Part shown: piece by piece, positions 7,936-28,057 of the stretch
How positions within the stretch are numbered: the stretch's first letter is position 1
Layout of the letters: each line of letters begins with the position of its first letter
Virus record (IMG/VR): IMGVR_UViG_3300032311_000477
Coordinates: 1 to 28,057 of that record
DNA from: a virus
Reading direction: 5' to 3' (one strand)
DNA: 28,057 nucleotides
The notes under the pieces: generated by a model
What the model was told of the DNA's origin: nothing
Seen by the model: the letters and a program-made list of their open reading frames with translations, nothing else
The model's database searches: none
Made by a program: the position numbers and the translations under genes

Positions 7936-8330
7936 TTGTCCGTATTAAAACTTTTAAAAACTTTTGTAGCTATTTTTTTGTACCCTGTATTTGAAGTTGT
8001 TAGGATACAATTTCTAAATTCTTCCCAATCAATTTGAAATGAATTATCCAACATACCACCTGTTTTGGATTTAACTACTTCGTTTAAAGCATTAATAGTG
8101 TATATTGTGTTAGATTGTTTCTTTCTATGTACTAAAATAGTTTTCCATTCAGATGAGATTGGAGCAGAACCCTTACCCACATTGAATGTTATAAATGCTT
8201 CTTCTGGTCTTAGTTTACTTTCTAAAACAAAAACATTTGGGTTTGTTAATGTATAACTTCCCAATATAAAATTAACCGAATTATCTAATTCCTGCTTTGT
8301 TGTGAATAAGCAAAGTAGTTGTGTATTCAT
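7923..8330 (-). CDS. Protein of unknown function (135 aa)
   Basis: I cannot assign this protein. It starts MNTQLLCLFTTKQELDN, contains beta-type stretches (VFVLESKL 33-40, AFITFNVG 45-52, WKTILVHRKK 62-71) and a C-terminal half with QIDWEEFRNCILTT near residues 98-111. No transmembrane segment or known motif was found. Its start overlaps the stop of the HNH-motif gene as TAATG, indicating translational coupling, and its last codons host the promoter of the next gene. Confidence 0.65.
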   Translation of the reverse strand: MNTQLLCLFTTKQELDNSVNFILGSYTLTNPNVFVLESKLRPEEAFITFNVGKGSAPISSEWKTILVHRKKQSNTIYTINALNEVVKSKTGGMLDNSFQIDWEEFRNCILTTSNTGYKKIATKVFKSFNTDNLEF

Positions 8331-9979
8331 TATTTTTTACCTTTTTGTTTAGACTTTATAAGGTCTATTTGTTGTTGTCTAACTCCAGCTTCCTTTTCTA
8401 CCATCTTTCTACCTCTATCCAAAATACTGTTTGTAGCATCTAAATTCTTTTTACTTTGTAATTTAACTCCGGCTTTAATCATAGTATTTGCCACAACCTT
8501 AACTTCTTCTGGAACAGGTCTCCTAACACCTCGAGCTCTTACACCTTTTCCCGCTTGATATCTATCAATGTGAAATTTATTATCAGGTGGCGGAGGATTG
8601 ATACCCATTTTTTTCAACTTCTTTTCGTATGTTGGGTCTATTTTCATTATACTATTGAATTCCATAACATTAGGGTGCCAAAAGTTCCAAGCTTTCATTA
8701 AAGCCATTCTCTCATCTGGATTCATTTTCTTCAATGTTTCTTCATTAATACCCGAAAAATCACCAGCTCCTACTGATTTAATAAAATATTCTTGTAGTTT
8801 TTCTCTTCTAATTGAAACAATTTCATTTTTCAATCTAATCAATTCTTTATCATCCGGAGATACTGATAATTTTTTTATTACTCTATCCAATAATGCAGAA
8901 CCTTCTAATGAATTTTTTAACTGATTTAATGGAGTTTCAATTAAATCCCAGTTATCAGGACTATCTAAACGGTCTTGCTCAGCCAATATAGTTGTTTTAA
9001 TTCCTTTTTTCTTTTTCTCTGCAACAATTTTAGCTGCATTTGAATATGGAATATGATGGTCTAATTGCATTTGATTAAATGGAACTACTTCACCTGTTAC
9101 AACACTTCTTCCACCATTACTTAAATATAATTGAACAATATCTCTAAATCTTTGAACACCTGCCTCTCCGGTTGTTAATTCAGAAGCAACTCCACCAGCT
9201 TTAGTTATAGATTGTTTAACTTTAGCAAAATCTTTACCTAATTCATTTTTCATTACCTCAATAGTTCTATCAATATGTTCTTCTGATACTTCGTATTTAG
9301 GTAATTCTAATCTATATGATGGGTCTTTTAATTGTTTTTCAGTTACTTCTTTTAATGCAAGTAATTGCTTTTCAGTTGGGTCAAACACACCAGCTCCCTT
9401 TAATTGCTTTTCAGCTGAAGGAATTAAACCAAATTTAACAATTTGTAATAATTTTTTATCATCCAATTGCTTTCGTGCAATATCTTCTTTTGAAGGAACA
9501 AATGATTTGCCTGATTTTGAAGATGTTTTAGGTGTACCTTTATCAAATACATTAGCACCTTTACCTTTACCAAATACACTTTTACCTTTTATTGGTTGTT
9601 CTGCATCATCATCGGTAGCATCTACCATATCAACATCCTTTTCACTATACCCACTCTTCTTCATCATACCTTTTGCAATATTATATGCTTGGGTTTTTTT
9701 ATCATATCCTAATGCTGAGGCAACTCTTACATCGTTTCCAGTTTCAGGGTTTTTAAAAGATTTAGCTAATACTTTATCTAATGGTTCTTTTTTAGGTGCT
9801 TCATTTATATAAGAAAAATATACTCTAGCTTTCTGAGCCATCTCATTGGCATCAGAAACACCATTTTCTCTTAAAATTTCTGCTAATGTTGTAACTTGTT
9901 GTTCCTTGTTTAAATCAATAATACCATGCTCTACACGGTATTCTAACTCTTTTAGGATTTCTTGGAAATTTATTGACAT
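8330..9979 (-). CDS. Large HNH-motif protein (putative endonuclease)
   Basis: With the ATG at 9977-9979 the protein has 549 residues; an upstream TTG would add seven but is a poor choice. Residues 300-355 hold an HNH-type site: TGEVVPFNQMQLDHHIPYS (Asp307, His308, His309) followed by PDNWDLIETPLNQLKNS (Asn343 and Asn352), the expected metal-binding and catalytic arrangement. The N-terminal 170 residues are charged and low complexity (KGKSVFGKGKGANVF), and residues 170-290 and 380-549 are helical and lysine-rich. This is far longer than homing HNH enzymes, so the nuclease is embedded in a multidomain protein. It sits between polymerase and small early genes, but also has the late-type ATATTTATA element 36 bases upstream, so it could be a virion or packaging nuclease. 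Specific role unknown. Confidence 0.72.
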   Translation of the reverse strand: MSINFQEILKELEYRVEHGIIDLNKEQQVTTLAEILRENGVSDANEMAQKARVYFSYINEAPKKEPLDKVLAKSFKNPETGNDVRVASALGYDKKTQAYNIAKGMMKKSGYSEKDVDMVDATDDDAEQPIKGKSVFGKGKGANVFDKGTPKTSSKSGKSFVPSKEDIARKQLDDKKLLQIVKFGLIPSAEKQLKGAGVFDPTEKQLLALKEVTEKQLKDPSYRLELPKYEVSEEHIDRTIEVMKNELGKDFAKVKQSITKAGGVASELTTGEAGVQRFRDIVQLYLSNGGRSVVTGEVVPFNQMQLDHHIPYSNAAKIVAEKKKKGIKTTILAEQDRLDSPDNWDLIETPLNQLKNSLEGSALLDRVIKKLSVSPDDKELIRLKNEIVSIRREKLQEYFIKSVGAGDFSGINEETLKKMNPDERMALMKAWNFWHPNVMEFNSIMKIDPTYEKKLKKMGINPPPPDNKFHIDRYQAGKGVRARGVRRPVPEEVKVVANTMIKAGVKLQSKKNLDATNSILDRGRKMVEKEAGVRQQQIDLIKSKQKGKK

Positions 9980-10014
9980 ATCTATCTTAATTTGTATCAA
10001 ACATAATTATATGA

Positions 10015-11715: not shown

Positions 11716-14166
11716 TTATTTTTCAACAATTCTAAAACCAGCCTCAATTGTTGTATCCCATCCTGTGGTTTGTACGTTGTGTTTTATGTTAGTAATTTGA
11801 AATACTCCTATTTGATTGTATATTTCTGGTATACCATCTATATTAAAATATTGACCAGGTGTAAATCCGCTGAATCCATCAATTGTTATACTAACTTCAA
11901 TTGGTGATAATGTAGATTTTTTTGTTTTTGGATTGCCATTTGGGTCTCCTAATATTCCATTAACGGCATTATATATTAAATCTGCATCTTTATATACTAA
12001 TACAGTTCCATCATTTGCACCTGTTTTATTCAAATTTAAATAATATTGAATAGATTTTGAATTTGAAATTTGTGTAAAATTCTTAGCTTCTGTTGTTGCC
12101 GTTTTTGGTGTGGGTGTATCTGTGCTTGGTTTTTTTGCTTTATCAGCTTCTACTGCCTTTTTAAAATTAGCTTCAATTCTTTTTAATTCAACATTATTAA
12201 TAGAATAATACCCATCCGCATTACCCATAGTTGAATTATCAATTGCTTTGTAGGCTCCGGCTGGCATTACCAATGTAGTGCTTTTGGTATCTCCCGCTTT
12301 TGCTGCATCCGCTTTGGCTTGTTCTAATAATTTACCTGAATTAAATATTTGCCTACCTGCTACTAAATTACTCATTTCAAAATTAAAACTAAATTGTTTT
12401 ACATTTGATGCAATTGTAGTTGGTTTAAATCTATAAGTATCTTGTTGGTTTTGCTTTTTTACTTGAGAATCAGATGATGCCATCAATGCATCAATGATAG
12501 TTCCACCTGCATCAGGACGCATATTTCCATAAATTAATGCAAATAATCCATATGAGTTTTCATTTATTATACCCAATATTTTTTCTAAAAAATCAATTCT
12601 AGTATATGTTGAATTCCAAGCCTTTAAAACATCTTCATATTTTACAAAAATATTTAAAGCATCTCCCAAACGTATGTGTTCTTTATTTCCATTTCCCTGT
12701 GGTATTATTATTTGATTATAAGGGTCTCCCGGAACAAGTAATTTTTCTTCCGAATGAAAATTGTATCCATTAATTATACCGGGCCGTTTTCCATCAGGAA
12801 GTATTTTTATTATGTTTTCTCCTTCTTTTGGTTCTTCGCCTTCTTTTGTATCCGGTGGTAAATCTAATACTGGTAATTCATTAGTTGGGAAAAGTACTTT
12901 ATCGCTTGATGATAATATATATCTATTTGAACAAACTGGCAATATAGTTAATTCTTTTCCATCTTTATTTGTATATTTTGGTAATTCTAATTTAAAAAAT
13001 CTAGTATCTATATTATCTACGCCAACTACATAATTCATTAAAATTTGTAATATAAATCTAAGTGATAGATATGCTTTGTCAGATACAGTTGTATCGGATT
13101 GTTGTTTATTTATTTTTAAAAAATTAAACCAATCGTTTTGCCAATCTCCACCGGGTGTTGGATGTGGTGCGGCTAATTCATCAAATGTTTTTTCAACTAA
13201 ATTAAAATCAGCCAATATTAATTGTTTAACTTGCGCTTTATCTGTGTATTCTGTATCCTTTGGTTTAACTTGATTTATAGATGTATCCTTTTTAGGATTA
13301 TGTGGTATAGCTAAGCTTACTTGATTTCCCTGTGATATATCCAAAGAAACGCTGTATGTATTATCCTCATTTATTGAAAATGAATATTCAGTTACTTTTC
13401 CAGCCACTAAATCATATGTTCCTAATGATTTTTCAACTCTACCTAAATATGCAGCAATAGCAGTGGTATCTGAACGATAATAATCGGAAAAACTCTCACA
13501 AAATTTATCGTATGATTGATTTTTTGGAACTAATGCATCCAATGGACTATTATATGTTTCAATTTCAATTTTTTTTCCGTCTTTTAATGAATTGTATTTT
13601 CTTTTTTGATTTTGTGGACTATGTACTTCCGATGATGCGAATAAATAATTTTTCATTAAAGAATTATCTCCCCATTCTACCAATATATTCATACCAGGTT
13701 TTAAAAAAAACAATTCAAACATTTCCAATTGTTTTAATGTAAAACATCTAACATTTATTTTGGCAGTTTTTAATGTATTATTTGCACCATCAGTATCAAC
13801 TTCTACTGATTCTACAATTGGTGTAGATACTTTTCTGCCAGATTCATTTTTAACAGTTATAACTTTACCTGTAAAATCAATTCCAACAGGCGTTTCTCCC
13901 GTTGCATATGTTAAATTTAAATTATGTGAATTATTTGCAATTATACATCCTTTAAATGAGTTTTTTCCTCCACTATTTGCAATTATATCTAATAATTCTT
14001 TTCTTCTTTCTTCAGGGTCTTTTTTTGCTGCACCTTCTACAACTAATGCTGGTGATGTTAGTACTACCCACGGACTTTTAAATGATGTCATTAACGGAGT
14101 ACGCTCTCTCTGCGTCATTATATCACTAATCCAAGGATTAAGAGGAGCTAAAAATGGGAATGGCAT
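11716..14166 (-). CDS. Large baseplate/hub-like virion protein
   Basis: An 816-residue protein between the gp53-like gene and the end of the virion block. The C-terminal domain (about 755-816) reads GFSGFTPGQYFNIDGIPE, then VFQITNIKHNVQTTGWDT and TIEAGFRI, which resembles the terminal beta domain of hub proteins (gp27/late-control D type), where a ligand-contact turn is followed by FQVTNVxHxV and a GWxTTIE strand. The N-terminal half includes FTLKQLEMFELFFLKPGM and VEWGDNS (about 140-170) with beta-rich surroundings. A linker rich in Thr, Lys and Pro (about 680-700) precedes the last domain. I infer a baseplate hub or hub-associated protein; no lysozyme motif was seen. The ATG context is ATAAATAAGTT. 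Confidence 0.62.
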   Translation of the reverse strand: MPFPFLAPLNPWISDIMTQRERTPLMTSFKSPWVVLTSPALVVEGAAKKDPEERRKELLDIIANSGGKNSFKGCIIANNSHNLNLTYATGETPVGIDFTGKVITVKNESGRKVSTPIVESVEVDTDGANNTLKTAKINVRCFTLKQLEMFELFFLKPGMNILVEWGDNSLMKNYLFASSEVHSPQNQKRKYNSLKDGKKIEIETYNSPLDALVPKNQSYDKFCESFSDYYRSDTTAIAAYLGRVEKSLGTYDLVAGKVTEYSFSINEDNTYSVSLDISQGNQVSLAIPHNPKKDTSINQVKPKDTEYTDKAQVKQLILADFNLVEKTFDELAAPHPTPGGDWQNDWFNFLKINKQQSDTTVSDKAYLSLRFILQILMNYVVGVDNIDTRFFKLELPKYTNKDGKELTILPVCSNRYILSSSDKVLFPTNELPVLDLPPDTKEGEEPKEGENIIKILPDGKRPGIINGYNFHSEEKLLVPGDPYNQIIIPQGNGNKEHIRLGDALNIFVKYEDVLKAWNSTYTRIDFLEKILGIINENSYGLFALIYGNMRPDAGGTIIDALMASSDSQVKKQNQQDTYRFKPTTIASNVKQFSFNFEMSNLVAGRQIFNSGKLLEQAKADAAKAGDTKSTTLVMPAGAYKAIDNSTMGNADGYYSINNVELKRIEANFKKAVEADKAKKPSTDTPTPKTATTEAKNFTQISNSKSIQYYLNLNKTGANDGTVLVYKDADLIYNAVNGILGDPNGNPKTKKSTLSPIEVSITIDGFSGFTPGQYFNIDGIPEIYNQIGVFQITNIKHNVQTTGWDTTIEAGFRIVEK

Positions 14167-14483: not shown

Positions 14484-16070
14484 TTATATTTTATATTTTC
14501 TACGAGGCATCATTACAAATGTATCACCATCATCACCTAATCCATTTGCTCTATTTTCATCTATTTGCGCTTGCCTTCTTTGTGCAGCTTCATTTTGCCA
14601 TTTTTGCATCTCCGCACCACTCATATTTGAAAATGTAGATGTTTTAACAGGAGCGGGCGCAGCGGTAGCAGTAGCTGATGCAGCTGGGGCAGCTGCTTGT
14701 GTGCTTGTAGTAGATGCGGCCGGTGATTGTGCAGTTTTAACTTCACCATCCGTTGTTACAACAGGTTCTCCTGTAAAATTATATTCATATAATTTTTTCT
14801 TTTTATCTTTTTTATCTTCTACTATCTTTGGATTAGTTACAACTTTAAATCCAATTGATACGTTTATAACAGTTGGATATGGTGTTAATTTAGAACCATC
14901 GTATGCAGTTTCCATATCAGCCGTTGCCCACGATGCTGCATCATCCACTTCAATACTTAAACTTTCAATAAATCCAAATAAATTATCATATAATCCGTTT
15001 AAAGTTAAATAAACAAAATTACCATTAAATCCAAGTGGACTATATCCTCCATTGTTTTCGTAAGTAATTACACTAATATCTTCATCAGGATGTACTAATG
15101 CTCTCAATTTATTCAATGCTCTTTTCATAGAAACAAATGAATCCATATTAGTATAGTATAATTTTACAGAAAAAGATATACTTCTTTCCACACCCATGTA
15201 ACGATATTGTTGAAATGGCGAACCTATAAATTTAAAATTACTCCATTCAGGAGTAGCTTCATCTGTAATGCCTGATATTGTACCTGGTAATATTATATTA
15301 TCATTATTCTTACCATATCTTTGAAGTAACACATATGGAGTTTGTACATATTCATTCTTTTTTGCAATATCTTTTAATTGGTCCGTGCCAACATTATCGT
15401 TTAATGCAAATGCCGATATTATATTATGATTAACTACATCGAATGGACTATGTTTCTCATCCATTATTTTTGTATTTACTCTTGGTAACAATTTACCACT
15501 AACATCTTTATAATGTGTTGTGAATTTTATACCTTTCTCATCTGTTTTAGTAATACGTTTACCATCGGCTTTCATTTTCCACTTCATACCATATTCATCC
15601 TGCTCACTACCTTTACCCTTTAATTTATCTTTTAATTTATTAAGAGCTTTTGCACTTCCGAATGTATTTAATGCGGATACTGCGGCTGCTGCTGCCATAC
15701 CGGCTGGAGAAGAACCTCCTTGATTTAATTTAGCTATAATAGAAGCAGGTGAAGGTGTATCTTTTACAAAGTATGCAGTATTTGGGTCAATTGCATCTTT
15801 TAATCCCTGTTGCGTTTTACCAAATGAAATTGGAGGATTTAAAAATGCTTTATCGCTTTTAAATATAGTATCAGTTGGTCTATTTGGATTTCCACCCAAT
15901 GCTCCACCAATTTGACCGCCTATTAAATCTGCAAGTGCACTTGGTGATGATGTAAGTAATGCTGCTGCTCTTGGGGCATTAATTAATCCTCTACTTTCTA
16001 TAAAAAGTTTACCTTTCAGCCCGTATAGTTCTTTATTTTGCTGTTTAAATAAATCTTTGATTGTCGCCAT
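14484..16070 (-). CDS. Baseplate tube-cap / tail-tube initiator-like protein
   Basis: A 528-residue protein immediately after the tape measure gene, where T4-type phages keep gp48/gp54. The central part (about 275-410) includes FIGSPFQQYRYMGVERSISF, VKLYYTNMDSFVSMKRALNK and LRALVHPDEDISV, then PYPTVINVSIGFKVVTNP, a tube-like beta domain as found in tube-cap and initiator proteins. The N-terminal 150 residues carry Gly/Ala-rich stretches (GGQIGGALGGN; AGMAAAAAVSAL). A long Ala/Thr/Pro linker (about 435-470) leads to a basic C-terminal tail ending RRKYKI. Assignment rests on position plus resemblance, not on an exact motif. An ATATTTATA element lies 19 bases upstream of the ATG. Confidence 0.62.
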   Translation of the reverse strand: MATIKDLFKQQNKELYGLKGKLFIESRGLINAPRAAALLTSSPSALADLIGGQIGGALGGNPNRPTDTIFKSDKAFLNPPISFGKTQQGLKDAIDPNTAYFVKDTPSPASIIAKLNQGGSSPAGMAAAAAVSALNTFGSAKALNKLKDKLKGKGSEQDEYGMKWKMKADGKRITKTDEKGIKFTTHYKDVSGKLLPRVNTKIMDEKHSPFDVVNHNIISAFALNDNVGTDQLKDIAKKNEYVQTPYVLLQRYGKNNDNIILPGTISGITDEATPEWSNFKFIGSPFQQYRYMGVERSISFSVKLYYTNMDSFVSMKRALNKLRALVHPDEDISVITYENNGGYSPLGFNGNFVYLTLNGLYDNLFGFIESLSIEVDDAASWATADMETAYDGSKLTPYPTVINVSIGFKVVTNPKIVEDKKDKKKKLYEYNFTGEPVVTTDGEVKTAQSPAASTTSTQAAAPAASATATAAPAPVKTSTFSNMSGAEMQKWQNEAAQRRQAQIDENRANGLGDDGDTFVMMPRRKYKI

Positions 16071-16125: not shown

Positions 16126-19100
16126 TTAGGGAACTTTGGGAAACCCTGCACCAGCCTTTCTATCATCTTGTCTTTTTTGAATCATACTTGTAACTGCTCT
16201 ACCATCTATATTAAGTGAGAATGCTGCATCTCTATTTTCTGCTAATACTGCCATTAGAGCTTGTAAGTTTTTAGATATCTGAACATTTGCTTTAGTATCT
16301 GCGGTTAATTTTTCAATATTCTTTGCACTATCTTGTGCTATTGTAAAGTTATTGTTTGCACTTTGTGCTAATACAAAATTTCCGTTTTGTTTACTAAATC
16401 CTGCCATTTTATCCCAAGGAACTTTTGATAAATTTGTGGTATCTATCTTAGCAACTTCACTCAATGCCGAAGCCATATTTATCAATGCCGCCGATGTTAC
16501 ATCTATACCGGATGAAATTGCACTGAATATTTGCATTGTACCTAACAACTGCATAAGTTGTGGATTTGCTGCTCCTAATGAATCTGCTAATCCTCTTGTA
16601 GAAGTAGCGAAAGAACTTAAAGTTGCTTGAAGTCCTTGTATTATTGGTGTACCTTTTGTTATTGCGTCTGTTACAGTAGGGCTTAATAATACTTGTATTT
16701 GTGCGGCTAATAATTCTAAATTAGGATTACTCCTTACTACACCTAATGCATATGCACCATATCCAAAATCATGCATTGCTCCAGCTAATCCTTTTAATGT
16801 TGCTTGAGCTTTATCATCAAGCTTAGTTAATGCACTTTTAAGATTATCCATAAGTGCTCCTAAATTCTTACCATCATCTACTTGCGAAAGCATTGCAAAT
16901 GCCGGTGCTAATACACTAACTGCTGTTGCTGCTTGCATTAATGCTGGACCAGAGTCACCAAGTTCTTTTAATTTTTCCCATATTGTTGGGCCTCCACCCC
17001 CAAATAGAGAACCAATGAAACCAAGAACACCATTTATTAATTCACCTGCCCCTAATGCAACTAAACCGGCTGAAAGGGGTATCAATGCTGCTGCTACTTT
17101 TAATAAATTTCCACCATCAATTTGACCTATTTTAACAAGTGAATCGGCAACAGCGGTTACCACCATTGCAATAGCCTCACCTATTGATTTAATCACATAT
17201 CCTATTCCTTCTAAAATAGATGTAATTATCGGTCCAGCCATTTCCAATGCTTTTACCAATACATCACCAATTACTCTAGCAATTTCTATTACCACCGGTG
17301 CCAATGCCATTATTGCAGGAGTTGTTAATAAAATTGCTGCACCAAATGCTAACATTACAGGTATAGCAGGAGTAAGTGCTACTAAACCAGTCGCGACTGA
17401 TAATAATCCTTGTCCGATTCCTTGTAATACTGCTTTAATTGCCGTACCAACACCTTGACCAATTTTTTGAATAAATCCGCCTAATCCAGCTCCTAAATCT
17501 TTTATCTTATCACCCATTGACATTGCTTTTTCCAATGGTGCTTCTAATGCTTCTACATTTGATGCAACCGATTCCACAACGGCGCCTGAACCAGGTATCA
17601 ATGCTTCTGCTCCAGCTGCTGCTCCACTTACAGCCATATCTTTGGCAACACTTCCACCTCCACCGCCTCCGGCTTCAGGTGCTCCACCTCCACCACCTTT
17701 TCCTCCAAATACTTTACCTGCCAATGAACTTAATCCGGTTGTAGCTAATCCACCAAGTGTTGCTGCTAACCCACCTAATAAATTTTCTTTTAAACTTTCC
17801 ATAAAGTTTAATTTTGCAGTATCTTCCAATTGTTTACGATACGCATCGGAAGATTTAAAAAGTTTATCCTGAGCTTCAGCGAGTTGTTGGGATTTTATTG
17901 CTTGTGCGGCTTGAGCCGCTAAAAAATCTTTATGTCCTTTTGAATTTATAAATGAATCTGCAATTTGTCCCGATAGTTGTGCATCAACTACGGCTTGTTG
18001 TGCTGATATATTTGCTTCTTGTGAATTTAATGTTGCTTCCGCTTGTTGTGTTTTTGTTAAAAACTCTTGATTACCAGCTTTTGCATTTCCTCCTGATAAT
18101 GATGCTTCTTTTCCTGTATTATTTGCTACCTTAGATAATGAATTTAAATCCATACCACCCAATGCATCTTGTAATGCTTGTTGTTGGAACATATCCATAT
18201 CAGCAGGGTCTAAACCTTGTGCTTTTAATGATTCTAATGCGCCAGCTTGGTCACCTGCTGCAAATTTAGCTCTTACTTCTGCTAAATCAACTTGTTCTCC
18301 TAACATAGAACTTAACTGCATTTCGGCTTTGATACTATCTTTGTAGTTCATCACCATATTTTTACCAGCTTTAGCTACATCACCAAAGTTCAATCCCATT
18401 GATTGTGTGTATGCAACTGCTTTAGCTAATGCAGGTCCGCTCTTTATTTGATATCCTAATGCTTCCTTTGAAGCTTCTGCAACCTCCTTCATTAAGTTCC
18501 CTAATCCAATGCCCGCCTGGTCTGCCATATTACGCATTCCCTCTTGCATATTCATAGCAACTTCTGCACTCATACCATCCATACGTTGGAAAGCCTCATT
18601 GATTGCTGATATATCATCTACGGATTGCCCTGTTCTTTCAGCCATAACTGCCATATCAGCAGCTGCTTTTGCAGTTGGCATTTTACCAGTTGCTGCTCCG
18701 GCTGCTTCCATAGCTGATGCTATCTTATCTGCACCAATACCTGCTAATTGCATTTGTGCAGCACCATATCCGATACTACCAATACTTTTACCAAATAGTG
18801 CCGTTTTAGCTGCTCTATCAAATTGTGCTGCTCCACTTTTCATTGATGCAGAAAACGCATTTGCGGCTTTTTGGCCGGCAAATGCCGCTTCATTCATAGC
18901 TTGCGCTACGTTGTGTGCAGTATCAATTCTATTATTATCGGATTCTTCTTGTATTTTGGTATAATTCTTTACACCTTTTACAACTTCATCATTTGAAATA
19001 AAATTCGCATCTGATTGTATTTTAGCTCTCTCAGCTATACCATCTATACGACCTTGTTCAATTTCCTTATCGGCTTGCATTGCTGCCTTAATAGGTGCAC

Positions 19101-19887
19101 CAAAGTAATCCATAGCGGCTTTACCCAATGCTGCCCCCAATGCAAATACAGCTGCTTTAAATGCAATTGTATCTTTTATGTTCGTTTTAAGTAAGGTATT
19201 TACTTCTCCTAATGCCGGAATGCCTGAAAAATTATCAAATACCCCATCTAATCTTTCAGATTGTATTTGAGATTTTTTCATTAGTTCTGCGAAGCTTTTA
19301 CCTTCGTTATTCATTAATTCCAATTGCTCTTTCAATGCTTCCGATGAAACACTAGCCATATCTACCTTAGATATAACATCTTGAAATGCTTCGGATTGTT
19401 GCTTAATTTGCTGAATACGTTCATCGTTGGATACTCTACCTAATGCAAATTCTCGATTGATATCTGCTATCGAAGTATGCATATTTTTATATGCATTTTG
19501 AGCTGCAACTACTTGTTGGTTAGTTTTTTTATTCTTTACTCCGCCATCTGCTAATTCAGCTGCGATACTAGCTGCAACTAATTTAACTTTAGTAAAGCTT
19601 TTAGCTTGCTCATTCGCAAATTTATTATTTTTCTTCATTTGATTTCCGATACTAGTCATAGTATCATCCATATCTTCAAAATCGGAAACAGAATCTTTGA
19701 TAACTTTAGCGTTATCTTTATATATTTTATTTAGTTTAGTTACTTCCCTTTGCTTTTCCTTAATGAGTTCGGCTTGAACTTTATCACCATCACTCATTTC
19801 TTTTTGAAGTTTGGCAAGTTCTTTCTGCGCAGTTAGAAGATATCTAACTACTTTAGCTTGGTCATTATAATCTTTTTCAAATGGCAT
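16126..19887 (-). CDS. Tail tape measure protein
   Basis: The longest gene in the window (1253 residues), downstream of the tail chaperone slot and upstream of baseplate genes, the standard place for the tape measure. The N-terminal 220 residues are coiled-coil-like and charged (YLLTAQKELAKLQKEM). Residues 330-700 are helical and alanine-rich with repeated KAAAD/AGAAT-type segments. A glycine-rich spacer (about 723-742) is followed by a strongly hydrophobic region (about 805-925; for example VMLAFGAAILLTTPAIMALA), the membrane-active stretch typical of tape measures that enter the host envelope. If tail length scales as in other phages (about 0.15 nm per residue), the tail would be roughly 190 nm, an inference. 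No peptidase or lysozyme motif was recognised. Confidence 0.88.
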   Translation of the reverse strand: MPFEKDYNDQAKVVRYLLTAQKELAKLQKEMSDGDKVQAELIKEKQREVTKLNKIYKDNAKVIKDSVSDFEDMDDTMTSIGNQMKKNNKFANEQAKSFTKVKLVAASIAAELADGGVKNKKTNQQVVAAQNAYKNMHTSIADINREFALGRVSNDERIQQIKQQSEAFQDVISKVDMASVSSEALKEQLELMNNEGKSFAELMKKSQIQSERLDGVFDNFSGIPALGEVNTLLKTNIKDTIAFKAAVFALGAALGKAAMDYFGAPIKAAMQADKEIEQGRIDGIAERAKIQSDANFISNDEVVKGVKNYTKIQEESDNNRIDTAHNVAQAMNEAAFAGQKAANAFSASMKSGAAQFDRAAKTALFGKSIGSIGYGAAQMQLAGIGADKIASAMEAAGAATGKMPTAKAAADMAVMAERTGQSVDDISAINEAFQRMDGMSAEVAMNMQEGMRNMADQAGIGLGNLMKEVAEASKEALGYQIKSGPALAKAVAYTQSMGLNFGDVAKAGKNMVMNYKDSIKAEMQLSSMLGEQVDLAEVRAKFAAGDQAGALESLKAQGLDPADMDMFQQQALQDALGGMDLNSLSKVANNTGKEASLSGGNAKAGNQEFLTKTQQAEATLNSQEANISAQQAVVDAQLSGQIADSFINSKGHKDFLAAQAAQAIKSQQLAEAQDKLFKSSDAYRKQLEDTAKLNFMESLKENLLGGLAATLGGLATTGLSSLAGKVFGGKGGGGGAPEAGGGGGGSVAKDMAVSGAAAGAEALIPGSGAVVESVASNVEALEAPLEKAMSMGDKIKDLGAGLGGFIQKIGQGVGTAIKAVLQGIGQGLLSVATGLVALTPAIPVMLAFGAAILLTTPAIMALAPVVIEIARVIGDVLVKALEMAGPIITSILEGIGYVIKSIGEAIAMVVTAVADSLVKIGQIDGGNLLKVAAALIPLSAGLVALGAGELINGVLGFIGSLFGGGGPTIWEKLKELGDSGPALMQAATAVSVLAPAFAMLSQVDDGKNLGALMDNLKSALTKLDDKAQATLKGLAGAMHDFGYGAYALGVVRSNPNLELLAAQIQVLLSPTVTDAITKGTPIIQGLQATLSSFATSTRGLADSLGAANPQLMQLLGTMQIFSAISSGIDVTSAALINMASALSEVAKIDTTNLSKVPWDKMAGFSKQNGNFVLAQSANNNFTIAQDSAKNIEKLTADTKANVQISKNLQALMAVLAENRDAAFSLNIDGRAVTSMIQKRQDDRKAGAGFPKVP

Positions 19888-21867: not shown

Positions 21868-24396
21868 TTATCCGTTAAAACTTGCACCAGTTGGTAAAAT
21901 GTTGAAATCAATTTGAATGAATTCAGCCGTTCTAGTTGGTTGTAAGTAGATAGCCCCTTTCATAATGTTTCTATCAATTACATCTGGTGTGTTATTAGTT
22001 TCATCCATTACCACTTTGAAAGCGTAAAGACCTTGTCTTTGTTGGATTGATTCTAAATACGGATTAACTATGTTTAAGAATCTATTTCTAGTCTCTGCTG
22101 TGTTTTGTTCGAATACTAAATAACGAGAAGTAGATGCGATATACTTTCTAACAGTCAATAATAATCTTCTTACGTTGATTCTATCTAATGCTGATGGTTT
22201 ATCTTGTAAAGTTTTTTGTCCGAATACAACTATACCTTGTCCAGGGAATTGTACAATTGGATTTACTTTACCTTCGTATAATGAATCTTTTTCAGATTGT
22301 GTTAATCTATTCAATACACTAACTGCTCCTGTCAATCCACCTCTATTCAAACCTGCTGGTGCGAACCATTCTGCTGCTACTCTATCGTTAGATGCGAATA
22401 CGCCAGGTAATAATACTGAAGGTGGAACAGTGATTAATTTATTTGTGTTTACATCAATTGTTTTAATCCAAGGATAGTAAGTTGCTGCCATATTTGAATC
22501 AACATTACCTGCTTGCGAAGTTGCGGTAGTTACCGTATCACCTGCTGCTGTTGTATCCATAATATAGAAACAATCATTTCTTGCTTCAACCATATCCAAT
22601 ACTGAAGTTACTACTGAAGGGTGTAATGTTCTAATAACACCTGGAGTTACTACCATATTGATATCATATTCATCAGCGTTTGATAATGCTGCGATATGAG
22701 TTTGATATGCCTTCGAACCACTTGCTGCTACCGTAGATAAGTTAAAACCTTGTGAGTTTCCTTGTACAATATCAGTTCCTTTGTAAATTGGAGTTGCCGG
22801 GCTCATACCATCAAATCCTTCTTGGAATGCTACAACGAATTGTGCTAAAGTTGAACCTACTGATAATGCTACTACGTTTGTTGCTGCACTATCTAATCCG
22901 AATACTGTGTTAGAACCTACACTTGCACCAGTTGGAATTGGTTTTAAATAAATTGAGTTATCACTATTATTATCTAAATCAATACCACCATATTGTGTTG
23001 CCGATGAAGTTACAAATGTTGCTGCCGGTATTTTTGCACTAATAGCTGCTGATGCAGAAACTGGCAATTGATATGCGGCGTGTCCAAATGGTACTGCTTG
23101 AACCGGAATTGAATCAGATGATACAAATCCTGCATCACTACTATTCCAAATTCTTACATATTTTGAATTATTTACCCAATCACCATATTCAGTTATCTTA
23201 CCAGTTGTTGAATCGATTTCTCTACTTCTATCACCTATTACTCTAGCAATATAGTTAGGAGAATTAGGGTCTAAGTTTACATTAGAGAATGATTCTAAAA
23301 CGATTTTCTTTTTGTTAGTATCTTTGAAATCCCTTACAACTACAGTGAATGTACCATAATCGGTACCCGCAACTGAACCAGCTGCTTTAATATTTGTAAT
23401 ACCTACTTTAACTTTAGTATTTGCTGCATTGCCTGCACCAATTGTTACAAATTTTAATAAATCATATCGTTGGCCGGAAATAGTTTGAGATTTGATTGTT
23501 GGAGTTACTGCAGATTGTGCATCAAATCGGAAGTTTTGGTCACCCAATATGTTTACTGAACAAGATGCGTGTGAATCAAAGTTTATACCACTATTTTTAA
23601 AGTATCCATGTACATATGCTGCTTTAGAGCCCAATGGAGAATTACCAAATACTGCTTCAACATCATTTACATCAGTTGATTTTAAAGATGCTGATATATT
23701 TAAACCATTACCTAAATAAAAATCACCATTACCATCGTTATCTGCCAAAGTTGAACCTGCAAATCCAGCGTTTGAACCAGTTAATGTATTGAATAATATT
23801 GCTGCAGTTGAACCAGATACATCATATGTGATATCAAATATATCCGTTTGATAATTTGTTGCTGTTGCAGATTGGGATACATATATCGAAGTTGGTGCAA
23901 CTGTCAATCCACTACCTTTTTCGATAATATTAACTGCGGTAATTACACCACCTACAATTGTCACCGATGCCGTTGGTGCCATTGTAAATGTACCACCAAC
24001 AAATTGAATAGATGCAGTTCCTGCATTTGTTCCCGTTGATGATGTATAATACAATCCAGCGGATGATGTTGTTAATGTATCGATTTGCCCTAAGTTAAGT
24101 GCACTTATCAATAAAGGAGCTGTTTCGGTATATCCACCAACACCTGCTACTCTACAAATTGTTGCTACTCCAGCTTCTCTCAAATATGATTGAACTGCCA
24201 AAGGAGTATAATATGTGTCATCAACTGAACCGAAAAGTGTTTCGAATTCAGATTGTGAATTTACGATTGTTGGTACTAATGGTCCTTCTTTAAAAGGTCC
24301 GATGAATGCTGCACCAATGTCAGCAACACCTTGTTGTAAGAATGAAAGGTCGTTTTCTTTTGTAAATACGCCTGGTGATACTATTTTGTCTGCCAT
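21868..24396 (-). CDS. Tail sheath protein (gp18-like)
   Basis: An 842-residue contractile sheath subunit, longer than T4 gp18 (659). The N-terminal VSPGVFTKENDLSFLQQG (6-23), the FIGPFKEGPLVPTIVNS segment and YYTPLAVQSYLREAG follow the sheath plan. The C-terminal domain (about 640-842) is the conserved part: GLNRGGLTGAVSVLNRLTQS, VVFGQKTLQDKPSALDRIN, VRRLLLTVRKYIASTSRY, and a final strand FIQIDFNILPTGASF that packs on neighbours. The extra length is in the middle (about 100-500), rich in Ser, Thr, Ala and Asn with beta-type sequence, probably surface-exposed insert domains. Transcribed just before the tube gene. Confidence 0.93.
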   Translation of the reverse strand: MADKIVSPGVFTKENDLSFLQQGVADIGAAFIGPFKEGPLVPTIVNSQSEFETLFGSVDDTYYTPLAVQSYLREAGVATICRVAGVGGYTETAPLLISALNLGQIDTLTTSSAGLYYTSSTGTNAGTASIQFVGGTFTMAPTASVTIVGGVITAVNIIEKGSGLTVAPTSIYVSQSATATNYQTDIFDITYDVSGSTAAILFNTLTGSNAGFAGSTLADNDGNGDFYLGNGLNISASLKSTDVNDVEAVFGNSPLGSKAAYVHGYFKNSGINFDSHASCSVNILGDQNFRFDAQSAVTPTIKSQTISGQRYDLLKFVTIGAGNAANTKVKVGITNIKAAGSVAGTDYGTFTVVVRDFKDTNKKKIVLESFSNVNLDPNSPNYIARVIGDRSREIDSTTGKITEYGDWVNNSKYVRIWNSSDAGFVSSDSIPVQAVPFGHAAYQLPVSASAAISAKIPAATFVTSSATQYGGIDLDNNSDNSIYLKPIPTGASVGSNTVFGLDSAATNVVALSVGSTLAQFVVAFQEGFDGMSPATPIYKGTDIVQGNSQGFNLSTVAASGSKAYQTHIAALSNADEYDINMVVTPGVIRTLHPSVVTSVLDMVEARNDCFYIMDTTAAGDTVTTATSQAGNVDSNMAATYYPWIKTIDVNTNKLITVPPSVLLPGVFASNDRVAAEWFAPAGLNRGGLTGAVSVLNRLTQSEKDSLYEGKVNPIVQFPGQGIVVFGQKTLQDKPSALDRINVRRLLLTVRKYIASTSRYLVFEQNTAETRNRFLNIVNPYLESIQQRQGLYAFKVVMDETNNTPDVIDRNIMKGAIYLQPTRTAEFIQIDFNILPTGASFNG

Positions 24397-24464: not shown

Positions 24465-26213
24465 TTATTTGTATGTTGGAGAGAAATAATCGTATACTTG
24501 TCCTACCTGTGTTGCTGTTTGTAATGTATTATAGAATAATGCAGTTGCAATTTGCCCATTCCAAAACGATGTTCTAGCACTATTTGAACCAATTGTTACA
24601 TAGTTTGTAGAAGCAGGTGCCGTAAATGCCGCTGCTGTGAATGTACCAACTGATGTTTTATCAACATAAACCGTTACAGTTCCAGATGGTTGGAATGTTG
24701 CCGAAATCATATACCAAACGTTTGATGATAATGAAGTCGTTAATTGTGCACTATTTCCTAATGTACTACCATAGAACTTAACTCTATTTAAAGTTGAACT
24801 ATCGGTTGATTCAATTGCTAAACCATAAAATCCAGCATAGTCAAAAATGTGTCTTGTAGTTGTACCCAATGTTGTTGTAGGTCTTACCCAAACATGAATT
24901 GTACCTGTGTTAGTATTGAATTGAGAAATGCCACCATTTATATTAGATGCAGTATCTTTATAGAATAAATTTGATGTACCATTAAATGCGTAGTATTTAT
25001 CCTTTTTAGTTGCTCCTGCATTATATGATGGGTTACCACTTCCTAATGATAATGGAGCTTGTGCACCAGGTCTAACACCTGTACCATATCCTGTCAAATC
25101 TAAGAAATCCACAGTAGGAGTTCCCGTTGAAGGAAGTGTTTGCGATGGAAATGAATATGCTTTTCCTGCATCTACATACATTCTTAAACCTAAAGATGGG
25201 ATGTATGGTTGAGTTGTTGTACCTTTATTGTGTGATATTGTACCATTTGCTAAATAAACGTCAGCGTTTTCTACGTTAATTGTTACAATTTCAGTATCTT
25301 CAGTTACCTGTGCTATATCATATACTTCAATTTCTTCTACTCCACCTTCTTCCGTATATTTAATAATCAAATCACCAGGTAATATATTTTCTACATTTTT
25401 GAAATGATATTTTTGAATTTCATTATCAAATACCCATAATGGGTGTGTTCCAGTTGATTTTATTAATCCATTGTTAATGTTATAATATCCACTTGCAAAG
25501 TTAAATACTAAATTTTCAACTGCTACTTCGGTGTATGTTCCTGAATTACTTTCTAATTGATAAAATCTCCAATCTATATTTTCAGAATCAATTGGTTGAG
25601 ATTCATCGGGTAATCCTGCTGGCACCCATGCTTTAATAATATCACCTACATTCAAATCTTCAACATTGATTTCACTACCATTTGATAATTTTACTTTTGT
25701 ACCAAATAATAAACAAAAATCAGGTTGGTTAATTGTATTATATACATCTACTGCATATAATACTTTTGTAGATGCAACATTGTAATTGGTTGCATTTATA
25801 TTATATCCATCAGCATATGTCATTGATAAACTAGATGATGCTTCTGAATATGTACTTGTACCAACTGCAGCAGGTGTTACAGGAAATGATGGAGATGCTC
25901 CCAATGTAGGAGAGCCTACTGAAAAATTACCATTATTAAATGTTACTGAATAGTTTGCAGCTACACTACCAACTCTACTACCGTGCAATGAACCTTGTGA
26001 GCCAAATGAAAATGTTGCCGTTTCTGATGTGCTCTCTACTATATAAGTGTATGTTGGTAAATTAGCAGTTATAGAATCTACTGCAAATGAACTAAATGCT
26101 GCCGTTGTTCCAGCTGCTGCATTCATAGCATTTAATGAAACTGCTTGTGTAGTTCTTGCCGAACCCACTGTTGCTCTATATAAATTTCCTAATGATAAAT
26201 TTGTCCTTGGCAT
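24465..26213 (-). CDS. Virion lectin-like protein with internal Hint (intein-like) domain
   Basis: A 582-residue three-part protein. Residues 1-166 are Ser/Thr/Ala-rich beta-type sequence, likely a virion attachment domain. Residues 167-329 form a Hint domain: Cys167 starts block A (CLLFGTKVKLSNGSEINVED), block B is TGTH (Thr254, His257), and block G is VYLANGTISHN with His328-Asn329. The next residue is Lys330, not Cys, Ser or Thr, so complete protein splicing is not expected; cleavage at either end is. No homing endonuclease is inserted. Residues 340-582 resemble LamG/concanavalin-like lectin domains: LRMYVDAGKAYS, YYAFNGTSNLFYK, IHVWVRPTTT, GTVTVYVDKTSVG. The gene sits between a glycosyltransferase and the tail sheath gene, so a sugar-binding, self-cleaving fibre or decoration protein is my inference. 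Confidence 0.82.
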   Translation of the reverse strand: MPRTNLSLGNLYRATVGSARTTQAVSLNAMNAAAGTTAAFSSFAVDSITANLPTYTYIVESTSETATFSFGSQGSLHGSRVGSVAANYSVTFNNGNFSVGSPTLGASPSFPVTPAAVGTSTYSEASSSLSMTYADGYNINATNYNVASTKVLYAVDVYNTINQPDFCLLFGTKVKLSNGSEINVEDLNVGDIIKAWVPAGLPDESQPIDSENIDWRFYQLESNSGTYTEVAVENLVFNFASGYYNINNGLIKSTGTHPLWVFDNEIQKYHFKNVENILPGDLIIKYTEEGGVEEIEVYDIAQVTEDTEIVTINVENADVYLANGTISHNKGTTTQPYIPSLGLRMYVDAGKAYSFPSQTLPSTGTPTVDFLDLTGYGTGVRPGAQAPLSLGSGNPSYNAGATKKDKYYAFNGTSNLFYKDTASNINGGISQFNTNTGTIHVWVRPTTTLGTTTRHIFDYAGFYGLAIESTDSSTLNRVKFYGSTLGNSAQLTTSLSSNVWYMISATFQPSGTVTVYVDKTSVGTFTAAAFTAPASTNYVTIGSNSARTSFWNGQIATALFYNTLQTATQVGQVYDYFSPTYK

Positions 26214-26223
26214 ATGTTATGTA

Positions 26224-27222
26224 TTATTCTCCGTTATAAATATCTAAAAGTTTTTCTTTCCATACATCTTTGTTTGAAAAGTATTTTATCATCCAATTTT
26301 TAAGTTTTTCAAATTCTGCTTTACGGGTTTCGTAATCATCCTTACATATCGTTTCGTAGGTCTCTCTAAACGATATCGCATCACTCGCTTTGTATTTATA
26401 ATCAAGTGGTACGTGCCATTTTTCATGTAGTATTGGAAGTTTTCCCCAATCCACTGCTTCAAATATACCATATCCGAATGGTTCATATTCAAAGCAAGAG
26501 TGAGATATTCCCCAATCAAGTCCATAGAACCTTTCCTTATACTTATAATCAAATTTGTAAACTTTTGCTTTTTCAAATTTGTATCCATATTTTTGTTTAT
26601 AATATTTGTTGAATGTTTCTGAATTTGTAGAAATAAATCCACCTAATCCATCCATATATTCAACATTTTTTCTACCTTCAACTCTTGCCGCATATCCAAT
26701 TTGTGTGGATTCAGAAAGCTTATTGTTTTTGGTAAATGTATAATTATTTGGAATATGATGCAAATTTTCCGTTTCATATGGAAAATGATACAATCCTACC
26801 CAAACTTTATTTTTAATTTTATTTATTAATTCGTTTTCGTATTCCCAATTACCATACCAATGTAGATATTCATCTTTATCTTGCTGTGCCATTAAAGACA
26901 CTTTAGTTAAATTATGAAAAACTATTGAATCAATCTTTTCCAAATTTTGATGAATAGCTCTGGTTGGAGTATAATGACCATGTAAAATGTGAATACGTCT
27001 TGCACCTTCTAATATTTTTATAATTTCATCTTCGGATGTTTCCCAAACATGCTCTATATCAATTGGAAATTCTTCGTAATTTGTAGGTTTGTGTCTATGG
27101 AAAAGAAGAAGTGGCTTAACATCTAAGTTAGGTGCCACTTCTTTTATCCAATTTGTTACCCATATATCAGCACCGCTATTGAACCAGGGTCCTCCTGCGG
27201 TAGTGTAATAAACATCATACAT
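26224..27222 (-). CDS. Glycosyltransferase, GT-B fold (GT4-like)
   Basis: A 332-residue enzyme. The N-terminus MYDVYYTTAGGPWFNSGADI has the acceptor-side loop of GT-B enzymes; HILHGHYTPTRAIHQN (about 73-88) fits the middle of the first Rossmann domain; IGYAARVEGRKNVEYMDGLG (about 174-193) opens the second; and EYEPFGYGIFEAVDWGKLPI (about 244-263) is the E-x7-E nucleotide-sugar motif with both glutamates present. No signal peptide or membrane segment. It is flanked by a tail fibre gene (3 bases away) and the Hint/lectin gene (10 bases away). It may glycosylate virion proteins or alter host surface sugars; the donor cannot be read from sequence. Confidence 0.8.
   Translation of the reverse strand: MYDVYYTTAGGPWFNSGADIWVTNWIKEVAPNLDVKPLLLFHRHKPTNYEEFPIDIEHVWETSEDEIIKILEGARRIHILHGHYTPTRAIHQNLEKIDSIVFHNLTKVSLMAQQDKDEYLHWYGNWEYENELINKIKNKVWVGLYHFPYETENLHHIPNNYTFTKNNKLSESTQIGYAARVEGRKNVEYMDGLGGFISTNSETFNKYYKQKYGYKFEKAKVYKFDYKYKERFYGLDWGISHSCFEYEPFGYGIFEAVDWGKLPILHEKWHVPLDYKYKASDAISFRETYETICKDDYETRKAEFEKLKNWMIKYFSNKDVWKEKLLDIYNGE
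26235..26243 (-). promoter_or_regulatory. ATATTTATA element upstream of the Hint/lectin gene
   Basis: Coding-strand TAGATATTTATAA lies 22 bases before the ATG at 26213 and shares 13 bases with the tail tube copy. It falls inside the last codons of the glycosyltransferase (encoding DIYN), so coding constraint could also explain it. Confidence 0.33.
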
Positions 27223-27225
27223 TTA

Positions 27226-28057
27226 TTATAAACCTTTTGATTCTTTTAACTTTTCGATTTCTAAAGTTAAAGAATGAATTTGTGTTTGTTGTTCTTTGAT
27301 TGCTTCTACCATTAAACCCATCATTTTTGAATAGTCTAATGCTAAGAAACCATCGTCTCTTGTTTTAACTACTTCTGGTAAAACTTCTTGTACTTCTTGT
27401 GCTATCAAACCTGTTTTAGGAGTTGACTTTGTTACTTCATGTACATCATCATTCCATTCCCAAGTTACACCATTTAATTTAGTTACTTTTTCTAAAGCGT
27501 TTGGAATATTTTGTATACTATTCTTATGTCTTTTATCCGAAGTATAGTATGCCGTAATATCACCAGTTGCAGTTATTGCTCCCGTTACTGTTACACCACC
27601 ATTTGCAGTTATTGCTCCTGTTACTGTTAAAGAAGTTAATGTTCCAACCGATGTCAATGAAGATGCCGTTACACCCGATGCTAATGTTGCACCTGATAAA
27701 GTTCCTGCTGCTGCAGTTACTGTTATTGCCGCTGAACCATCAAAGTTTACACCATTAATTGCTCTTGCAGTTGCCAATGTAGTTGCAGTTGATGCATTAC
27801 CTGTTAATGCTCCTGTAAATCCAGTCGAACTTACTGACGTTAATCCTGCCAATGTAGTAGAAGTTCCACCCAACGCAGTTGATGTTGAACCAATTGTTAT
27901 TGTATTAGTAGTGATTGCAGAACCAACTACTTGAGATGAACCTGAGAATATTGTTTTAGCCGCCGTTGCTCTACCTTCGTATGTTGTTGCTAAAGATGCG
28001 GTTGTTAAGTTAATACTTGCAGTACTTTCTTCAATTCTTGTTAATCTTGTATTTTGA
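27226..28057 (-). CDS. Tail fibre with C-terminal S74 intramolecular chaperone (5' end outside window)
   Basis: The frame is open to the right edge; 276 residues are visible. The first visible part (RLTRIEESTASI, then SSQVVGSAITTNTITIGS) is Ser/Thr/Ala-rich, typical of trimeric fibres. A repetitive stretch follows (VTGAITANGGVTVTGAITA). The last 110 residues are an S74-type chaperone domain: YYTSDKRHKNSI with the Ser-Asp-Lys motif at the self-cleavage site, LEKVTKLNGVTWEWN, GLIAQEVQEVLPEVV, LDYSKMMGLMVEAIKEQQ, and a coiled-coil end. Such domains trimerise the fibre and then cut themselves off before the Ser of the SDKRHK motif. A TTG at 27873 is not the real start: no stop precedes it. It is the most upstream gene of the visible virion set. 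Confidence 0.9.
   Translation of the reverse strand, partial: QNTRLTRIEESTASINLTTASLATTYEGRATAAKTIFSGSSQVVGSAITTNTITIGSTSTALGGTSTTLAGLTSVSSTGFTGALTGNASTATTLATARAINGVNFDGSAAITVTAAAGTLSGATLASGVTASSLTSVGTLTSLTVTGAITANGGVTVTGAITATGDITAYYTSDKRHKNSIQNIPNALEKVTKLNGVTWEWNDDVHEVTKSTPKTGLIAQEVQEVLPEVVKTRDDGFLALDYSKMMGLMVEAIKEQQTQIHSLTLEIEKLKESKGL
27567..27629 (-). repeat. 36-base tandem repeat in tail fibre
   Basis: Two 27-base segments (27567-27593 and 27603-27629) differ by one base and are spaced 36 bases apart, giving a 12-residue repeat of the type VTGAITANGG. This is the usual pattern of repeated beta turns in phage fibres and could vary in copy number by recombination. Confidence 0.8.

Follow-up and report, generated by a model that had tools for sequence, protein, structure and literature searches.

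Type A bacterial intein-like (BIL) domains are defined by a C-terminal His-Asn pair (HN), which type B BILs lack (PMC4031507, PMC7765530). Their sites are variable regions of bacterial proteins that are not themselves conserved. BILs with no nucleophile at the +1 position cleave at both of their ends and can also splice, by attack of the free alpha-amine on the thioester (PMC4031507). BIL2, from the BUBL1 polyubiquitin locus of Tetrahymena, forms isopeptide bonds in which a ubiquitin-like domain is joined to lysine side chains (PMC8616854). The C-terminal (Hog) domain of Hedgehog (1at0) has the same fold, and its thioester is resolved by an outside nucleophile. Among phages, homologous Hint domains are found in tail loci, in the proteins of PHROG 38766 (from Erwinia and Dickeya jumbo phages) and in the tail proteins of Phage NCTB that are annotated 'intein domain'. 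These Hints have an HN end and are at the extreme C-terminus of their proteins, with few residues past the HN, and several of the proteins have a collagen-like N-terminal part. We found no description of Hint domains as processing elements of phage tail proteins in the open-access full-text papers that we searched.

The window that we analysed, a 28,057-nt stretch of the virus record IMGVR_UViG_3300032311_000477, contains a 582-amino acid ORF (positions 24465–26213, minus strand) for which the original prediction had proposed a Hint domain with Cys167 in block A, TGTH in block B, a terminal HN and a following Lys330. All of these residues are present. The protein consists of an N-terminal domain (residues 1–154; 25752–26213, minus strand), the Hint domain (residues 167–329; 25715–25227, minus strand), a linker, and a LamG/concanavalin A-like domain (residues 430–570; 24504–24926, minus strand), the last of which had been suspected at the far end and is matched by PF13385 with an E-value of 1.5e-14. 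Searches with the N-domain and the C-terminal part found no match in named phages.

Both profile searches and structure prediction, two of the checks that the Hint claim called for, upheld it. We modeled the protein with AlphaFold2, using an alignment of the window family alone, and searched the PDB with Foldseek. The models have pLDDT values of 75 (Hint domain) and 81 (full-length protein), a moderate confidence. The top match of the Hint model is BIL2 of T. thermophila (6y75, 6tmm; E = 9.4e-8), below which is a mix of inteins, the Clostridium thermocellum BIL 2lwy, and Hedgehog 1at0; Foldseek assigns a probability of 1.00 to the BIL2, 2lwy and 1at0 matches, and the full-length model retrieves the same BIL entries with target TM-scores of 0.73–0.81. 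A profile made from the window family and distant phage Hints (profile A1) hits BIL2 (E = 2.7e-9) and 2lwy (E = 1.2e-8) ahead of every intein among PDB sequences. Because the window family used alone as a profile gives only weak PDB sequence matches, the sequence link to BILs passes via the distant phage Hints, which the window family matches at E = 3.1e-21 in profile–profile comparison; its match to a triple-Hint family, described below, has E = 1.9e-12. PHROG 38766 ('virion structural protein') covers the Hint domain at E = 5e-7. Matches to the Pfam Hint and intein models are all below cut-offs (PF14890, E = 0.0026), so the domain would escape ordinary annotation. Chance similarity to Hint domains is ruled out by the structure and profile comparisons, and we regard the domain as confirmed.

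The sequence blocks of the Hint domain are CLLFGTKVKLSNGSEINVEDLNVGD (A), STGTHPL (B), EIVTINVENADVYLANG (F) and SHN (G), after which comes Lys330. On the minus strand, the putative block A nucleophile Cys167 is encoded at 25713–25715, TGTH of block B (residues 254–257) at 25443–25454, block F (residues 311–318) at 25260–25283, and His328-Asn329 of block G at 25227–25232. Block F is altered: profile alignment with BIL2 puts Thr311 where Asp is usual and Asp318 where His is usual, and neither residue varies in 98 sequences. The window Hint shares its block F Asp with the NCTB, Erwinia and LR756508 Hints, the last from an uncultured huge phage. A type B BIL had been proposed originally; this is ruled out by the invariant HN, which is a type A feature (PMC4031507, PMC7765530).

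By its predicted fold and its profile matches, the domain is a type A BIL-like Hint. It resembles type A BILs such as 2lwy in fold, in Cys1, in the TxxH of block B, in the HN end and in having no Cys, Ser or Thr at +1, and it is nearer to BILs than to inteins, with BIL2 ranked first by fold and, together with 2lwy, also at the top by profile. It differs from them in that the +1 residue is always Lys, in the block F Asp that replaces His, and in its fixed place within a conserved, syntenic phage tail gene. As occurrence in variable regions describes where BILs are found and not what they are, we use the term BIL-like. BIL2 is the best structural and profile match and, like the window Hint, lies between two separate domains. 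However, BIL2 is eukaryotic and zinc-responsive, has ubiquitin-like flanks and retains the block F His, and lysine-directed ligation is chemistry known for BIL2 itself. The resemblance to Hog is a possible analogy: Hog ranks lower in the structure search, and the window Hint has an HN end and no sterol-recognition region that we could see.

Two scans, one with the Hint domain and one with the N-domain only as query, yielded 150 complete homologues, and all 150 have the order N-domain, Hint, LamG. These relatives come from freshwater viral contigs, and all the close ones are metagenomic. The search with the N-domain alone returned no Hint-less homologue (0 of the 150 complete homologues), and no homing endonuclease is present, so we view the Hint as a fixed domain and not as a mobile intein. 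We also considered an ordinary selfish intein in decay after the loss of its +1 nucleophile. Such an origin would account for the Hint fold and intein blocks, and inteins do exist in LR756508, a related huge phage, where Ser and Thr follow the Hints of a portal-like ORF. It is nevertheless very unlikely, given that no empty allele or endonuclease was found, that the +1 residue is Lys in every sequence whereas class 1 inteins have Cys, Ser or Thr, and that the catalytic residues appear to be under protein-level selection.

The indication of selection comes from a comparison of 52 representatives (52–80% identical to the window protein) and 98 distinct DNA sequences. Cys167, Thr254, His257, Pro258, His328, Asn329, Lys330, Gly331 and Thr332 are invariant in the 52 representatives, while most codons vary silently. 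In the 98 DNA sequences Asn329 is encoded by AAT in 46 and AAC in 52, His328 by CAT in 61 and CAC in 37, and Lys330 by AAA in 94 and AAG in 4; silent changes also occur at Thr254, Ser327, Gly331 and other codons, and Cys167 is always TGT. Part of the residue invariance may be due to shared descent. The prediction that the domain has no +1 nucleophile holds to the extent that Cys, Ser and Thr are absent, but the position is not simply vacant: Lys330 (25224–25226, minus strand) is present in 52 of the 52 representatives and in all 98 unique DNA sequences.

The highest conservation in the protein is at the junctions of the Hint domain. The N-side junction VDVYNTINQPDF (residues 155–166; 25716–25751, minus strand), which immediately precedes Cys167, has a mean conservation of 0.996, and of all 12-residue windows in the protein, those with the highest conservation fall within residues 149–171, surrounding it. 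The C-side junction KGTTTQPYIP (residues 330–339; 25197–25226, minus strand) has a mean of 0.93, compared to 0.74–0.80 elsewhere (0.80 in the N-domain and 0.75 in the Hint domain). Both junctions are predicted to be disordered (pLDDT below 50 at residues 157–165 and 331–333). Conservation of disordered junctions is what junction chemistry would produce, and it would also fit if the freed ends had a role in binding. These data bear on whether the Hint fold might be inert, serving a tail protein as a structural spacer, as the Asp in place of the block F His could suggest, together with a first Hint-like unit that lacks Cys1 in the triple-Hint family. We consider an inert spacer unlikely, because Cys167, Thr254, His257, His328, Asn329 and Lys330 stay the same in a domain that otherwise mostly drifts, and because the most conserved parts of the protein are its disordered junctions.

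The gene lies in a tail gene cluster. In sufficiently long loci the gene order is S74 tail fibre, a 332-amino acid neighbour, the Hint-LamG protein, tail sheath, tail tube and baseplate protein; in the window, the tail fibre with an S74 chaperone domain (PF13884, E = 7e-18) is at 27226–28056, the neighbour at 26224–27222 and the tail sheath at 21868–24396, all on the minus strand. From this synteny we infer that the Hint-LamG protein is located in the virion. The original placement between a glycosyltransferase and the tail sheath is right as to the tail cluster, but the upstream neighbour matches no glycosyltransferase family model. It has a glycosyltransferase-like motif, EPFGYGIFEAVDWGK, and no family match in Pfam, PHROGs, NCBIfam or PDB searches; a profile of 14 sequences of its family found nothing in PDB or Pfam, so the glycosyltransferase label is a guess from the motif. 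The neighbour is a conserved partner gene, adjoining the Hint-LamG gene in 145 loci with a gap of about 15 bp, and a homologue with 36% identity is directly beside the Hint protein of LR756508. Several large ORFs in the tail/baseplate stretch of the window and beyond have no Pfam match (16126–19887, 14484–16070, 11716–14166 and 8330–10000). A profile finds no Hint domain in Microcystis phage Mel-JY01 or Flavobacterium phage immuto, the isolates whose tail sheaths are closest.

Overall, sequence and model point to a real, conserved and probably active type A BIL-like Hint in a lectin protein of a phage tail cluster. Since both the cutting machinery and the lysine at the cut site are invariant, the protein is probably cut or re-joined after synthesis, and we think it likely that the Hint domain processes its precursor autocatalytically, without choosing one outcome; the self-cleavage or conjugation first envisaged is compatible with all the findings. 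We propose that a tail-associated lectin-like precursor has a fixed, catalytically competent Hint between its N-domain and LamG part. The acyl group of Phe166 would pass to Cys167 to form a thioester, aided by Thr254 and His257 of block B, and cyclisation of Asn329, assisted by His328, would free the LamG part with Lys330 as its new N-terminus. In inteins the block F His helps Asn cyclisation; with Asp318 in its place, and Thr311 in place of the usual Asp, the step on the C side might proceed slowly or differently. The thioester might be resolved by water, giving three separate parts; by the Lys330 amine, joining the N-domain to the LamG part and releasing the Hint; or by a lysine that belongs to another subunit, producing a cross-link. 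The computed masses are 62.4 kDa for the full protein, 17.1 for the N-domain, 18.3 for the Hint, 27.1 for the LamG part and 44.2 for the spliced N-domain plus LamG, and the computed junction peptides are VLYAVDVYNTINQPDFK (1998.01 Da) for alpha-amine splicing and VLYAVDVYNTINQPDF (1869.91 Da) for hydrolysis. An isopeptide bond would correspond to a species of 3482.81 Da that spans Lys330 and is not cut there by trypsin, and an Asn succinimide to a C-terminal Hint peptide of 4837.26 Da.

A narrower form of processing is cleavage only, in which the action of the Hint domain is to free the LamG part or to mature the precursor, and neither ligation nor Lys330 chemistry is involved. This is a real possibility, though not one that we would bet on: BILs give mainly cleavage products (PMC4031507, PMC7664689), but a fixed +1 residue is no requirement for cleavage, and Lys330-Gly-Thr is invariant. 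The retention of the +1 residue and of both junctions leads us to a weak preference for amine capture over plain cleavage. Alpha-amine splicing by BILs and the lysine chemistry of BIL2 make the invariant +1 lysine suggestive, and by analogy Lys330 could itself be the +1 nucleophile, its side-chain amine or freed alpha amine taking the Cys167 thioester, a specific reading that we hold tentatively and consider improbable. If true, it would mean a lectin protein joined by an isopeptide bond, or cross-linked tail fibres, made without ATP or a partner enzyme. The reaction would be the viral equivalent of that of Tetrahymena BIL2, and its acceptor lysine would have a fixed position, +1. If active, the Hint would be an autoprocessing domain retained as a functional component of a phage tail protein, not a selfish intein; the lineage occurs in many freshwater viral contigs. 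Having lysine fixed at this position raises the question of whether lysine can be a Hint acceptor instead of Cys, Ser or Thr, and such a domain could serve as a tool for lysine-directed protein ligation.

A +1 lysine is also seen in the LR756508 Hint, in one of the three NCTB Hints (HN-Lys-Val-Asp-stop) and in the third Hint of most triple-Hint members, which end in HN-Lys or HN-Lys-Lys. Other Hints of the families compared have Ala, Thr, Leu, Phe or Tyr at +1, and those of PHROG 38766 and NCTB have Ala, Thr or Lys. The backbone of the Hint tree is poorly resolved, so we make no claim about the number of origins of the +1 lysine. As background, we tallied +1 residues in bacterial PT-HINT domains, for which just 3 of 297 genomes gave a match. 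Bacterial relatives amount to four weak genome matches; two proteins of Bacteroidota MAGs (L158:7203–8483, L160:7176–8486) have a Hint-like domain without HN at their C-terminal end.

Like the window protein, the LR756508 Hint protein (L084) has HN-Lys, there followed by His and a stop, and lies beside a homologue of the upstream gene, but it has another N-terminal part and no LamG domain. The LR756508 genome is intein-rich, with several Hint/intein insertions in its portal-like ORF and in the adjacent ORF (L236:1401–5999); as the portal-like ORF Hints are followed by Ser and Thr, the virion-type Hint of this phage and its inteins are not alike at +1. No viral relatives came from searches that used the LR756508 and NCTB2 Hints as queries. 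Phage NCTB (L082:4960–12219) has three Hint proteins near tail-fibre genes, two with HN-Ala and one with HN-Lys, and one of the three is almost solely a Hint domain.

The triple-Hint family occurs in related freshwater phage contigs and comprises proteins of 734–765 amino acids that start with MKGT and have three tandem Hint-like units (L187:1944–4151, plus strand; L188:1645–3942, minus strand; and L189–L203). Unit 1 has no Cys1 and its HN abuts Cys1 of unit 2, whereas the HN-Lys or HN-Lys-Lys of unit 3 is the end of the protein in L193–L203. The N-terminal part (L187:1944–3300) matched nothing in Pfam or in a PDB sequence search; its LLELNTDT motif is reminiscent of ATP-grasp enzymes. The window family and a triple-Hint protein occur together in the phage contigs G012 and G015 (L204, L205, L214, L215), and also in G002 and G003.
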